From NCBI GenBank assembly GCA_004292515.1, contig RDXB01000047.1, positions 1 to 58,836 on the forward strand: a DNA stretch of 58,836 bases. The letters run 5' to 3'. Position numbers and translations under genes: made by a program. Of this stretch, positions 2,870 to 58,254 are shown in pieces (position 1 is the stretch's first letter; every line of letters starts with the position of its first letter). The notes under the pieces are model-generated. The model saw only the letters and a program-made list of their open reading frames with translations, had not been told where the DNA came from and ran no database searches. This DNA comes from Oscillatoriales cyanobacterium. GTDB taxonomy: Bacteria > Cyanobacteriota > Cyanobacteriia > CACIAM-69d.

Positions 2870-3097
2870 ACGGCAGACAAGGGGCTTAGGGCCTGTCGTC
2901 ATTTCTGGATGTGCGGCTGAAGCGGTTGGTTTTTCGTGCCCCAACCGTCGTAACAAGGGGCTTAAGCCCCTTGCTCCCAACGATCCCGTAACGGCGGAAT
3001 CAGAGTTTTGGGCGATTTGATGACAGTCCCTAAGACCCTTGCCCCTCAAAATCTGCTCACGGTGGCATCAGGGTTTTAGGTGCTTGGATCACATCCC
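2870..3097. repeat. Nested miniature element: complete copy inside an older copy
   Basis: The inner element spans 2889-3030 (142 bp), with ends GGGCCTGTCGTCA and TGATGACAGTCCC in inverted orientation and a TA on each side (2887-2888, 3031-3032). Its centre is the palindrome CAAGGGGCTTAAGCCCCTTG at 2954-2973. Flanking sequence is an older copy: on the left, ACAAGGGGCT; on the right, AGACCCTTGCCCC then ATCTGCTCACGGTGGCATCA, ending near 3097. Removing the inner copy plus one TA restores GGGGCTTAAG, the centre of the outer copy. No ORF of its own. The spacer between egtD and the glycosyltransferase (2792-3155) holds nothing else recognisable, apart from a triple CGATCGCTTAAGT at 2827-2856. Confidence 0.85.
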
Positions 3098-3155
3098 CGA
3101 AGCCGATCGCCCTGATCATGCCGTCTTGCTGAGTGGGTTCCCATTGAGTTGCCCT

Positions 3156-4938: not shown

Positions 4939-7900
4939 CTAGGCGATCGGGTTAATGGCAGCGTAGTGCCAGGTTTCTGCGTGCTGAATCGCAAGGCCAA
5001 ACCATTCGAGCCGATCGAGGTTTTCGCGAATCACTTGTCTGCGTTTGTCGGTGATTTTGCCTTTGAATTGGGCGGCGATTTGGTCGATCGACCAGTTGCC
5101 GGGGTTGCTGCGTAGGAGGTCGCGGATCGCGGCGAGTTGGGCCTTGGGCTGGGTGGGCCAGGGCTGTGGCTCGGCGGCGGGGGCGATCGGCTCGGGGCTG
5201 TCGATTAGGTTGGCGATCGCGGTTTGGGTGGTTTGGGTGGCGGGGGCTTGGTAGTCGGGCCGCAGCCAGCGGATGTGGCCGTTGCGTTCTTCGGCGGCGC
5301 GTTCGGCGTTGAGTTTCACGAGCCGTTCCAAGATTTGTTCATCGAGGCTGTTGGCGGGTTCCTCGTCGGGGGGCAAGGGGCGATCGTCGTTGGGGGGCAA
5401 GGGGCTTAAGCCCCTTGTCTGGGTCAGTAGGGGGATGAGGTCGTCCCAACCGTAGGCGCGGAAGACGGCGCGATCGAGGTCGTCGTGAATTTGTTTGAGG
5501 GTGGAGACGAGGGCGCGATCGTTGAGTTCGCGGTCTTTGTCGGTGAAGGGTTGACCGGCGCGGAGTTTTTCGAGCAGGTTATACATCCCGGTGATGGTGA
5601 TGTCGGGGTGGTTGGCCTGCACGGTTTTGCGATGGGCATCGAGCCGATCGCCCAGTTCGCGAATTTCTTGTTTGAGGCGATCAGCCGGATCAGGAAATGG
5701 AAACGGATCAAAGCAAACGGTTTTGTTATAGCGTGGGTCATTTCCAACACCCAATCGCCCACCGGCTGCCAATGCCCAAGTAACATGAATTTTGCTGGAA
5801 AGAACACCTAAAAAGTACGCATCTTCCAAAGCGATCATGACGGTTGTACTATCACAAATCGTTTTCGATGATGAAAATACAAAAAATCTGTGTCGCGATG
5901 TTAAGGACGTGACCAAGAATTGATCAATTTTTTTTAAGGCAGGGCGAAAGGTGTTTCTCGATTTTTCAAAAATCCACCATTTTTCTCTCAACACTGGGTT
6001 GTTGTTTCTAGATCTTTCGGGATATGCCCTGTCAAGCAACCATTGAAATATTAATGGTTCATTTTTTGACAATTCCTCTTTTTGGATTTCAAAACAATCA
6101 ATCGCATAATAATTTCGATTGGCTTGAGTTATATCCCTGCCCGAAAGAAGAGGATGAACTATATCTAACACTCTGGGTTTGATTGATTGAGCCTCTTGAG
6201 AGGTTAGTACAAATCCTTTACCTGTTAATTGATAACCAACACAAGAAATGCCTGAATTAGATTTCAAAACAGAGCAAGAGCATGGATCATGAAAAAGTTT
6301 GAGACCAGCACCAATATCGCCGTAAAATAATCTAAAGCCAATATCTTCGTTGTATATATCTTTATCTTCTTTTGCAATCAATGCCAGTCTACCTGACTTA
6401 TTAACATTGCTTGTAACAACCGTCATTGCAATTCGTACTGAAGCACTTCCCTCTTCATCAATCCAGGGATGATCAGGAATTGCATAACTTATGCAAAGAT
6501 CTCTTTTGTTAATAAATTTTTCAATAACTCTTCGATTGTATGTTTGACTAATTGAGTTGGTTGATATCAGTCCAAACGACTTAACCAGTCTCTTAATTGT
6601 TAAATTGGCAGCATGGTTCCACCAGTACATTACAAAATCGACTGCATCAGGTAGTGATTTATTGATTTTTCGTAGAGCCTCAACATAGCCATCATTGAGT
6701 TCTTCTCTCATATTAATTTTCCCAATAAATGGAGGATTCGAGACAATATAATCAGCCGCTGGCCATTCAGCAGGACGCGGATTTAAATAACGATAAATCA
6801 CCTTTTGATCGCTCGGATCAGGAACCTCCTTTCCCGTCACCGGATGAATCATCGTCTTGCCACCCCAACGAGTCCGCACCTGCCCCGTTTTCGGGTCAAC
6901 ATCCGGCTCCACCCCGTCATAGGCCAACACCGCATCGCGATTTTCAATATTCCCAAACGCCTGCAACACCGGCTCCGGCGGCTCCGCATTGCCAAACCGT
7001 TTGAAATGCCACTGCAAATAACCAATCCAAATCACCAACTCCGCGATCGCCGCCGCCCGAGGATTAATTTCAATTCCTAAAAATTGCGACGGATTCACCT
7101 GCTCCAAGACATTCAGTTGCACGTCTCCCGCCACATCCACCAGCCGCTTCAAAACCTCCTGTTCTAACCCCTTCAGCAAATCCAACGACACATACAAAAA
7201 ATTCCCCGTCCCACAGGCCGGATCGAGAATCCGAATCGATCGCAACTGCTCCAAAAACCCCTGAATTTCCGCCGCCGCCTTCGCCACCGCCCCCGTACTG
7301 CCATCCAATAGCCGCTTCACCTCCAACTCGATCGCCTCCCACTGCGATCGCAACGGCTCCATCACCACCGGCCGCACCAATCGCTCCACATACGATCGCG
7401 GCGTGTAGTGCGCCCCCAACCGGCTGCGCTCCGCCTTGTCCAGCGCCCGTTCCAACAACGTGCCAAAAATCGCTGGCTCCACCTGGCTCCAATCCTTCGC
7501 CGCCGCCCCATACAAAATTTCCAGTTGTTCCTTGGGCAGGGCGATCGCCGTCGCATTCTCAAAAAAACTGCCGTTAAACTTCAGCACCTTCTCGAAACCA
7601 AAGGAGCCACCCCGATTCATCGTTTCCCACAGCGCCTCAATTTCCGGTTGGAAAGTCGCCGGGTTGGGAATCCAGCGATCGCGCAGTGCCTTCGTAAACA
7701 TCTCCCCCTTCAGCAACGCCACATCCTCCGCAAACATCGTGAAAATGCAGCGCATCAGGAAACTTGCCGTTACCTGGGGATCGTGGCCCTGCTCCTCCAG
7801 CCAGCGCGACAGCTTGGCCAACTCTGCCGCCACTTCCCGCGTCACCCGTGCCCGCAGCTTTTCGGGGTTCAGCGCCTGCGGATCGGTGAAGATTTTGACG

Positions 7901-8418
7901 AAGCGATCGAACACCTCCGGCTGGGCCAAGTCCGCCAGGTTGACCGTTTCCCGCGCCCCATAGCCGCCATATTCGCCGCTGAACCCTTGCCAAATCTCGA
8001 AATGGGAGCCAATGTCGCACACCATCAAAAACGGCGGCAACGATCCCAGCATTCGGTTGTAGGCGTAGGATTTCGCTTGGTTAAAGGCCCTGTGCAGGTT
8101 GTCACGATAGATCTTCGTGCCCCGTTTGCCATGACCCTTGGCCGAAGAATCACTACCCTGCTTGGCTTCAATCAGGAAACAACCGGCCTTATAAAAATCC
8201 GCAAACCGCGTGGATTCGGCCTTGTCGCTGTAGAACTTAATATCCTTGTCAAAGCAATAGGGATCGCCGGGAACCGTTCCTTTCGGTGGTGGTTCTTCGA
8301 CCCCCAGCGCCCGACACCAATCCCCAAAGAATGATTGATAATTCGCCCGTTCGTTGCCTTCCGAGCCTTGCCATTTTTTGAGGAATGCTGCAACGCGATC
8401 GCGATCGTCCGGGGTCAT
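4939..8418 (-). CDS. MmeI-like one-polypeptide restriction-modification enzyme
   Basis: An 1159-residue protein that combines nuclease, adenine methyltransferase and specificity regions, as in type IIG/IIL enzymes. The N-terminus has a PD-(D/E)XK-like site: Asp74 in FADFYKAG and Glu84-x-Lys86 in FLIEAKQG. A helical linker leads to GAHYTPRSYVERLVRP (about 335-350), SAM motif I DPACGTGNF (399-407) and catalytic motif IV NPPF (561-564) of gamma-class N6-adenine methylases. The segment after NPPF to about residue 905 is the expected target-recognition region and is markedly AT-richer, without HIP1 octamers. The C-terminus (about 1090-1159) looks like a small helix-turn-helix module. A 20-bp repeat core is embedded in frame near 5400. 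No separate R, M or S gene adjoins it. Confidence 0.8.
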   Translation of the reverse strand: MTPDDRDRVAAFLKKWQGSEGNERANYQSFFGDWCRALGVEEPPPKGTVPGDPYCFDKDIKFYSDKAESTRFADFYKAGCFLIEAKQGSDSSAKGHGKRGTKIYRDNLHRAFNQAKSYAYNRMLGSLPPFLMVCDIGSHFEIWQGFSGEYGGYGARETVNLADLAQPEVFDRFVKIFTDPQALNPEKLRARVTREVAAELAKLSRWLEEQGHDPQVTASFLMRCIFTMFAEDVALLKGEMFTKALRDRWIPNPATFQPEIEALWETMNRGGSFGFEKVLKFNGSFFENATAIALPKEQLEILYGAAAKDWSQVEPAIFGTLLERALDKAERSRLGAHYTPRSYVERLVRPVVMEPLRSQWEAIELEVKRLLDGSTGAVAKAAAEIQGFLEQLRSIRILDPACGTGNFLYVSLDLLKGLEQEVLKRLVDVAGDVQLNVLEQVNPSQFLGIEINPRAAAIAELVIWIGYLQWHFKRFGNAEPPEPVLQAFGNIENRDAVLAYDGVEPDVDPKTGQVRTRWGGKTMIHPVTGKEVPDPSDQKVIYRYLNPRPAEWPAADYIVSNPPFIGKINMREELNDGYVEALRKINKSLPDAVDFVMYWWNHAANLTIKRLVKSFGLISTNSISQTYNRRVIEKFINKRDLCISYAIPDHPWIDEEGSASVRIAMTVVTSNVNKSGRLALIAKEDKDIYNEDIGFRLFYGDIGAGLKLFHDPCSCSVLKSNSGISCVGYQLTGKGFVLTSQEAQSIKPRVLDIVHPLLSGRDITQANRNYYAIDCFEIQKEELSKNEPLIFQWLLDRAYPERSRNNNPVLREKWWIFEKSRNTFRPALKKIDQFLVTSLTSRHRFFVFSSSKTICDSTTVMIALEDAYFLGVLSSKIHVTWALAAGGRLGVGNDPRYNKTVCFDPFPFPDPADRLKQEIRELGDRLDAHRKTVQANHPDITITGMYNLLEKLRAGQPFTDKDRELNDRALVSTLKQIHDDLDRAVFRAYGWDDLIPLLTQTRGLSPLPPNDDRPLPPDEEPANSLDEQILERLVKLNAERAAEERNGHIRWLRPDYQAPATQTTQTAIANLIDSPEPIAPAAEPQPWPTQPKAQLAAIRDLLRSNPGNWSIDQIAAQFKGKITDKRRQVIRENLDRLEWFGLAIQHAETWHYAAINPIA
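5393..5424. repeat. Miniature-element core inside the restriction-modification gene
   Basis: GGGGGGCAAGGGGCTTAAGC and the mirrored CCCCTTGTCTGG match the centre of the miniature elements found elsewhere in the window. The reading frame is not broken; the core encodes the peptide TQTRGLSPLPPND within a Pro/Asp/Glu-rich linker (about residues 1005-1018). Only the core is present, without the terminal inverted repeats. Confidence 0.75.
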
Positions 8419-45450: not shown

Positions 45451-45499
45451 GAGATGAGTCTATTTCTTGATTTCAGCTAGGAGTTGAAAGACTGGCTTC

Positions 45500-45690
45500 A
45501 TTGCCCGAGTGCAAGCTAAAACAGTTGATTTTCCATGCCCCAATCGTTGTAACAAGGGGCTTAAGCCCCTTGCTCTCCACAATTTGCTCACGGTGGGAGC
45601 GGGGCTTCAGGGAGTTGGACGACTAGCCCTCAGCCCCTTGCCCCCACGATGTACGATCGCAGGGTTCAGCAAGCGGTCAATACTGGGATC
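45500..45690. repeat. Decayed nested miniature elements
   Basis: The central palindrome CAAGGGGCTTAAGCCCCTTG is at 45554-45573, followed by sequence like the right half of the family and the end GTTGGACGACTAGCCCT (about 45616-45632). Immediately after comes CAGCCCCTTGCCCCCACGAT, the right half of a second copy. So one copy lies inside another at its centre, in the same way as at 2.9 kb. The left end is no longer clear. This makes up most of the 45451-45730 gap. Confidence 0.65.
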
Positions 45691-50245: not shown

Positions 50246-50388
50246 GGGCGTGTCATCAAATGAGCTTGATTGGGGCTGGAACGACCGATTTTCCTAGCCC
50301 AACCGCTGTAGACAATTAGCTTAAGCCCCTTGCCCCTCACGATCAAGCAACGTAAGAATCAGGGTTTCAGGGACTTGATGACAGCCCC
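50246..50388. repeat. Complete miniature inverted-repeat element, TA-flanked
   Basis: 143 bp. Left end GGGCGTGTCATCAAA, right end TTGATGACAGCCCC, with TA on both sides (50244-50245 and 50389-50390). The centre AATTAGCTTAAGCCCCTTG is a partly decayed palindrome. The flanks ACAGGAT and ACAGGGAC are not element-derived, so this copy inserted into unique sequence. No ORF. Confidence 0.85.
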
Positions 50389-51268: not shown

Positions 51269-51817
51269 AGGTGCTGTGGGTCTTTCTCGTCGGTTGGAAA
51301 CGAGCATACCGCTTGGACGGCAGCCCGCGAGGTCGGTGGTGCGGAGCTTCCACATACTCTAACAGATCGATGCCGGATGACCAGGGCGCAAAGGCCAGCC
51401 AGATGACCATCCCATGCGTAGCAGTGCAACGCCTGACCCAGGCTGATGCCTGTCCAATTTCCCAGACATCGGAACCGATCGAACAGACCCCAAACACTCC
51501 CGAAACACTCCCGAAAAACTTCATCCCTACGAAAAAAGGTAGGCCAGTTTGGCCTACCCGGGGTCGTCGTCGTTGTGCAGGGGCTAGGAGGCAGCCCCAA
51601 CCTTGGTGCTAGCGCGATCGCCAGCAAACTTGAAATTCTTTTTGAAAGCCTTGAGCGGTCAGCAAAGCTTACACACTTTACTAGCACGGCTGCCTTAATT
51701 CATTGGGTCAAAGTTGCGGGGTCAGTCGTCGCAACAAGGGGCTTAAGCCCCTTGCTGCCTAATGATCTGGTAACGGCAACAGTCAACTTGACCTATCAAG
51801 ATGAGCTTGCTGTGCTA
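51269..51817. other. Spacer with an unassigned minus-strand terminator and a decayed element
   Basis: 549 bp between the secreted protein gene and hetZ. It contains a hairpin at 51538-51558 and a decayed miniature element at about 51715-51800 (centre CAAGGGGCTTAAGCCCCTTG at 51735-51754). Short frames here have no family resemblance, though a minus-strand run reading KAFKKNFKFAGDRAST (51600-51660) is preceded at once by a stop and might be a gene remnant. Confidence 0.5.
51532..51558 (-). terminator. Hairpin with T-run, minus strand
   Basis: GGTAGGCCA paired with TGGCCTACC around GTT; on the minus strand it is followed by TTTTTT (51537-51532). It lies 260 bp beyond the hetZ stop, so it may end the hetZ transcript or that of an unrecognised short gene. 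Confidence 0.75.
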
Positions 51818-55184: not shown

Positions 55185-55382
55185 CTGGAATAGGCTAAAC
55201 CCTGATACTGCCATTGCGAGATTGATTGGGAGCGAGGGGACTAGGGCCTGTCGTCCAATCGTCTGAAACCCTGATACTGCCGTGACGGAATCGTGGGGAG
55301 CAAGGGGCTTAAGCCCCTTGTCTACAGTGGTTGGGGCATGGGCAATCAACCGATTTAGCGGTCTTTTGATGAGTGACCTCAG
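55185..55382. repeat. Miniature element inserted in the centre of an older copy
   Basis: The inner copy begins GGGCCTGTCGTC at 55244 after TA (55242-55243), has the palindrome CAAGGGGCTTAAGCCCCTTG at 55301-55320, and ends in a decayed TTTTGATGAGTGACCTC at about 55380. To its left, CTAAACCCTGATACTGCC and GGGAGCGAGGGGAC are the left half of an older copy. It fills most of the gap before pcyA. Confidence 0.75.
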
Positions 55383-58108: not shown

Positions 58109-58254
58109 TAGGGCCTGTCATCAATTACCCTGAAACCCTGATTCCACCGTTAGCGGATCGTGGGGGCAAGGGGCTTAATCCCCTTGTTACGACCATTGAG
58201 GCGCGGGAAATCGACGATTTCAGACTCAGTTACGGAAAATGATGACACCCCCTA
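58109..58254. repeat. Complete miniature element nested in an older copy
   Basis: Inner copy 58111-58252 (142 bp): GGGCCTGTCATCAATTACC at the left, AAATGATGACACCCCC at the right, TA on each side (58109-58110, 58253-58254), and a near-palindrome CAAGGGGCTTAATCCCCTTG at 58169-58188. The flanks GCAAGGGGTT and AACCCCTCGTCTG rejoin to GGGGTTTAAACCCC, the centre of an older copy. The surrounding 58044-58350 spacer has otherwise only the tnpB leader hairpin. Confidence 0.85.

Follow-up and report, generated by a model that had tools for sequence, protein, structure and literature searches.

A miniature cyanobacterial element carrying at its centre the preferred target of its likely transposase

Does a miniature mobile element settle by preference in the centre of its own copies? 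The question is raised by an insertion in the window, the whole stretch of 58,836 bp analysed here, which is contig C82 of the 3.98-Mb draft genome (G000) of a Limnothrix-group cyanobacterium. The insertion is a 142-bp non-coding MITE (family 1) that matches the family profile over its full length, has imperfect inverted ends GGGNNTGTCRTCA and lies between two copies of TA. It was originally described as an element nested within an older copy of itself.

A nested copy and its family

Features of the window are as follows.

2889-3030, + strand: non-coding inner copy of the family-1 MITE, 142 bp (full profile match, TA on both sides)
2887-2888, unstranded: left TA of the target duplication (TA flanks 42 of the 77 full copies in this way)
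3031-3032, unstranded: right TA of the target duplication (from the sequence)
2889-2901, + strand: left inverted end GGGCCTGTCGTCA (from the sequence)
3018-3030, - strand: inverted end on the right, which reads GGGACTGTCATCA in - strand orientation (from the sequence)
2954-2973, unstranded: central palindrome CAAGGGGCTTAAGCCCCTTG, preferred target of family 1 (sequence, target counts)
2857-2888, + strand: remains of the host's left part, with half palindrome ACAAGGGGCTTA at their end (profile positions 46-140 only)
3031-3098, + strand: the host's right half, from half palindrome TAAGACCCTTG onward (71% identity to 2963-3030)
58112-58253, - strand: second full family-1 copy, in a TTTAAA-centred variant palindrome (profile, flanks)
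50246-50388, + strand: full family-1 copy, not nested, between GATTA and TAACA (profile, flanks)
45488-45629, + strand: diverged full-length family-1 copy (profile)
51736-51753, unstranded: further exact palindrome (pattern search)
55302-55319, unstranded: further exact palindrome, near a family-1 end at 55244 (pattern search)
5399-5416, unstranded: exact palindrome with no recognisable MITE around it (inside ORF 4939-8418, - strand, open throughout)

The ends of the inner copy, GGGCCTGTCGTCA and TGATGACAGTCCC, form inverted repeats with 11 of 13 positions in agreement, and its central palindrome is perfect across 20 bp. Flanks ACAAGGGGCTTA and TAAGACCCTTG together make up another such palindrome: when the element is taken out together with one TA, ACAAGGGGCTTA meets AGACCCTTG and CTTAAG is restored. 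Both the TA-flanked 142-bp element and the restored centre are thus as originally described. The host was described as an older copy, and this holds in part. Once the insert is removed, the rebuilt host matches the element profile with 60 bits, from position 46 to 140 of 141 only. The older copy is therefore real, with its left 45 bp lost, including the left inverted end, which is no longer recognisable. Folded as single-stranded DNA, the element does better than shuffled sequence (z -3.5). Just left of the element, a 13-bp unit (ATCGCTTAAGTCG-like) is repeated in tandem at 2816-2859, and two of the units contain CTTAAG.

Recurrence of the palindrome is not due to chance. Allowing for at most 3 mismatches, its 18-mer AAGGGGCTTAAGCCCCTT occurs 10 times in the window, where 0.03 occurrences are expected, and 482 times in the genome, compared with 3 for a reversed-pattern control.

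Family 1 was surveyed by profile search of stretches covering 1.66 Mb, or 42% of the genome. The search retrieved 77 full-length copies, mostly of 140-145 bp, 42 of them with TA on both sides. A recognisable palindrome is kept in 72; an ancestral palindrome-free copy was sought among all 77, but the remaining five lack the palindrome through divergence or indels. Some variants have altered palindrome arms, e.g. CAAGATGCTTGAGCATCT (G000, C49 81046-81186), with changes in both arms that preserve pairing. Exact ends TAGGGNNTGTCRTCA number 176 genome-wide; 75 exact matches continue as far as GGGGCTTAGGGNNTGTCRTC, which means that a half palindrome borders at most about two fifths of the ends. Another genome of the same genus (G001) contains 111 exact family-1 ends, and 21 exact nested junctions were counted in records of Limnothrix sp. 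CACIAM 69d. The family thins out elsewhere: G002 has 29 exact ends, and the sister genus G004 has 16.

Family 1 is thus short (142-143 bp), multi-copy and non-coding, with no ORF of at least 80 aa inside, and it has the terminal inverted repeats (11 of 13 positions in the window) and target duplication (TA in 42 of 77 copies) typical of MITEs. An autonomous element with the same ends was not found in the same host; the matching IS occurs in the sister genus only. Many accepted MITEs have no surviving autonomous partner.

Insertion at TA is visible where two related species have the empty site of a single-copy insertion, which is the case at two loci. At the first, C42 43692, their sequence is GAAGACTAGGTGC and that of the window's genome is GAAGATTA-element-TAGAAC. 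This copy (C42 43692-43833) hit a gene at the TA of its TAG stop codon, which is restored by the first G of the element. At C31 20541, the relatives read CCATAAGATCCAACCC, corresponding to GGTTA-element-TAAGATCCAACCC. For nested copies, no empty site was found in the two species: several of the loci were located, but between the genes the sequences have diverged and contain no palindrome. At the window's own locus, the left-hand gene (1721-2790) is 68% identical in both relatives, and the surroundings of the element gave no two-sided match in them.

Preference for the palindrome

To be counted as an insertion into a palindrome centre, a copy had to show at most 3 mismatches per 12-bp half. Among the 42 TA-flanked copies, 14 lie in a palindrome centre and 22 at other sites; the last 6 are bordered by a half palindrome at one end only. 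In the same DNA, palindrome centres represent 150 of 44,650 TA sites (0.34%) and 150 of 13,266 YTAR sites. At least 14 of 36 insertions would fall into palindromes by chance with binomial P of about 1e-25 (TA) or 2e-18 (YTAR). The listing of flanks proposed with the original prediction, carried out for 42% of the genome, yields 14 of 42 TA-flanked copies in palindromes, as against 0.34% of TA sites. Insertion is thus biased towards the central palindrome, and copies do nest within copies.

Is it the element or the palindrome that is preferred? If the TA on both sides is allowed to be imperfect, the same mismatch limit gives 18 nested copies. Nine of their hosts belong to family 1, four to family 2 and five to neither. 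Taking the insert out of the nine family-1 hosts restores a family-1 element, end to end or nearly so in six of them. Family 2 is a second MITE (131 bp, ends GAGGATGTCTGAAAAG, TNA duplications TTA, TCA, TAA and TGA) that carries the same central palindrome; 37 full copies were found in 42% of the genome (e.g. C16 47629-47759 and C56 21106-21236), two of which (C31 44017 and C36 32387) are themselves inserted in such palindromes. Because hosts include family 2 and sequence matching neither family, the preferred target is the palindrome, not the element's own copies as such. The idea that the element uses its own copies as target therefore stands as to the preference for the central palindrome and the nesting, and has to be widened in that the palindrome is preferred anywhere, only half of the hosts being family 1.

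The 22 insertions outside the palindrome have a target consensus of their own, RRGGNYTARNCC, with Y before and R after TA nearly always and G/A at -4 to -6. The palindrome is the best match to this wider consensus. A preference for CTTAAG centres, also predicted, is seen as nine insertions into palindromic CTTAAG (142 intact sites) and none into non-palindromic CTTAAG (104 sites; Fisher P 0.012); it is one case of the wider rule RRGGNYTARNCC, which extends beyond palindromes. A weight matrix was built solely from the 22 non-palindrome insertions, using 4-6 flanking bases. No other TA site scores at or above the median palindrome, and the matrix predicts that 16-44% of insertions fall into palindromes, compared with 1% for random YTAR site sets. 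Sequence preference thus explains much, perhaps all, of the nesting. If only the strictest set is used (the 10 targets that resemble the palindrome least), the predicted share in palindromes is 2-10% and the observed share 33%, so the modelled sequence preference may not be all of the preference.

A transposase could recognise an extruded hairpin or cruciform rather than base sequence; the palindrome is perfect over 20 bp, and IS elements targeting REP palindromes are known (PMC1525189). Targets outside the palindrome, however, contain 2.2 of 8 self-complementary pairs, compared with 2.4 in background YTAR sites, and still display base preferences. This lack of excess speaks against a pure hairpin signal, and we regard recognition of structure instead of sequence as unlikely.

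Selection might also produce the pattern, if palindromes were harmless intergenic DNA and insertions elsewhere were lost, so that nesting reflects survival and not targeting. Many palindromes are indeed located in repeats, and insertions into genes are selected against. Nevertheless, palindromes make up 0.34% of TA sites, a share that rises to about 3% even on the assumption that nine tenths of the others are not tolerated. Moreover, single-copy targets independently give the same consensus, and none of the CTTAAG sites that are not palindromic was hit. Survival is thus a very improbable account of the nesting. We infer that the preference is caused by target recognition by the transposase and not by DNA structure or selection alone.

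A candidate transposase and the proposed cycle

The original prediction attributed mobilisation to a TA-targeting transposase, either IS630/Tc1-like or of the IS5 group, and proposed a search for a full-length IS with the same ends. Such an IS was found in the sister genus (G004) and not in the genome of the window. It is 862 bp long, has ends GGGGGTGTCGTCATTT and GGGGCTGTCGTCAAAA, and is located exactly within ACAAGGGGCTTA^TAAGCCCCTTGC, at the same locus as in the metagenome-assembled genome Cyanobacteria bacterium MS008 bin-008. Its transposase is encoded by two overlapping frames with the run AAAAAAGGGGG at the overlap, which suggests a programmed frameshift, and belongs to the IS5 family by PF13340 (101 bits), PF01609 and NCBIfam NF033580 (135 and 140 bits). 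The IS resembles the MITE in ends, TA duplication and palindrome target, both elements using the TA in ACAAGGGGCTTA^TAAGCCCCTTG. They differ in that the MITE has no transposase, and beyond the ends no likeness is discernible by eye. An IS5-family derivation of the MITE is indicated by both the ends and the target.

When the C-terminal half of the G004 transposase was used as query, matches were retrieved from 46 of 242 genomes of the class. Relatives in other cyanobacteria, whose transposases are about 60% identical, carry GGGCGTGTCATCAAT ends and lie mostly at YTAR sites. No relative was detected in the three genomes of the genus (G000, G001 and G002); G000 is a draft, from whose assembly a multi-copy IS can drop out. 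Likewise, none of the DDE transposases fetched from the genome of the window has the ends of the MITE. On the strength of shared ends and target, an IS5 lineage of the G004 type presumably moved the Limnothrix copies.

Two further elements were noted during these searches. A different IS (L165 1058-1971, G000:C98) is bounded by perfect inverted ends of 16 bp, GACCTCTTGCACGAAT, and flanked by TA at either end; its transposase frame is interrupted by TGA. Far outside cyanobacteria, Psychrobacter (L251 476, L280 5456) contains a 170-bp element with similar ends, GGGCGTGTCATCAAT next to TA, which adjoins a hairpin-like sequence.

The IS630/Tc1 half of the original attribution fared worse. IS630-type DDE_3 domains are present at two places in the genome, and TA duplication with a YTAR- or CTAG-like target is compatible with IS630 as well. 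Neither place, however, has ends like GGGNNTGTCRTCA, and the sole full-length IS found with matching ends is of the IS5 family, as are the relatives with the same ends; mobilisation by an IS630/Tc1/mariner-type enzyme is accordingly highly improbable. It is scarcely credible that the half palindromes belong to a longer element of about 166 bp and that nothing was inserted into a palindrome: both halves do lie outside TA in about one third of clean copies, but 22 clean copies are without them, the autonomous IS stops at GGG, the sequence past the halves belongs to a further copy of family 1, to one of family 2 or to neither, and the two single-copy empty sites end at TA.

Taken as a whole, the best explanation, which we hold to be very probably correct, is that the element carries the palindrome that its likely transposase prefers as target. 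Palindrome CAAGGGGCTTAAGCCCCTTG, present at the centre of the element and in some hundreds of other repeats, fits the target best, so that a large minority of insertions fall into its centre. Each insertion splits the palindrome of the host yet supplies an intact one; landing sites are thus not exhausted and nesting can go on. Such an element can keep spreading without using up its landing sites, with insertions steered into other mobile DNA and away from genes. This would be a simple route to high copy number with low damage to the host, and it is directly testable, as candidate transposase, ends and target are all named.

The machinery is known; what is new is the arrangement, in which the element carries the preferred target of its likely transposase. 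IS1397, ISPpu9 and other IS elements of several families, including IS5-family ISNm1106, target REP palindromes (PMC1525189). They similarly enter a short high-copy palindrome, but in Limnothrix what inserts is a MITE, which has the target palindrome within its own sequence. In Coxiella, the target of IS1111 is a palindrome of the MITE QMITE2 (reviewed in PMC10969869), so that there too a palindrome within a MITE serves as IS target. The inserter in that case is an IS with a name distinct from that of the MITE; in Limnothrix, insert and host are of one family or have the palindrome in common. Small mobile repeats lying within one another, in some cases with a strong preference for certain targets, are also described in the available parts of the reports on pneumococcal BOX, RUP and SPRITE (PMC3049150) and Haloquadratum PATE and SMR (PMC3119063); those parts describe no element with its own preferred target at the centre. 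Nezha and other cyanobacterial MITEs are thought to be moved in trans (as cited in PMC10969869 and PMC3049150); a difference from family 1 is the ISNpu3-like partner proposed there. A literature search covering few subscription journals retrieved no description of a MITE with the preferred target of its likely transposase at the centre.

The palindrome outside family 1

Genomes of other cyanobacterial families contain the same palindrome in many copies, without family 1. In G017, it is found inside a repeat of about 98 bp beginning with TATAGCGCCGC; in G022, inside a repeat bounded by CTAGTA and TACTAG, most other copies there having unrelated flanks; in G027, inside a repeat with TATAGCAATCCTAAAT-like ends. 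Since the palindrome is common to unrelated MITE families, one may ask how so short a sequence spreads. Pooled stand-alone palindromes are conserved over about 24 bp, RRCAAGGGGCTTAAGCCCCTTGYY, and not beyond; this conservation partly results from their having been found by similarity. With about 480 genome sites of about 24 bp, these copies have the high copy number, the palindromic structure and the length (20-40 bp) of REPs. The GTAG/CGTC tag at one end of REPs (PMC3733652) has no counterpart, as stand-alone RRCAAGGGGCTTAAGCCCCTTGYY copies share no tag.

We tentatively consider, while thinking it rather doubtful, that the 24-bp palindrome RRCAAGGGGCTTAAGCCCCTTGYY is an independent tiny mobile repeat spread across cyanobacterial families, which settled in the centres of unrelated MITEs, was spread by them and in Limnothrix became a landing site for one. 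If the palindrome were mobile by itself, two levels of selfish DNA would feed each other.

Individual loci at which the palindrome was observed near the centre of MITE-like repeats with other ends are L297-L303 (G017), L305, L306, L310 and L314 (G022), and L319 and L321 (G027).
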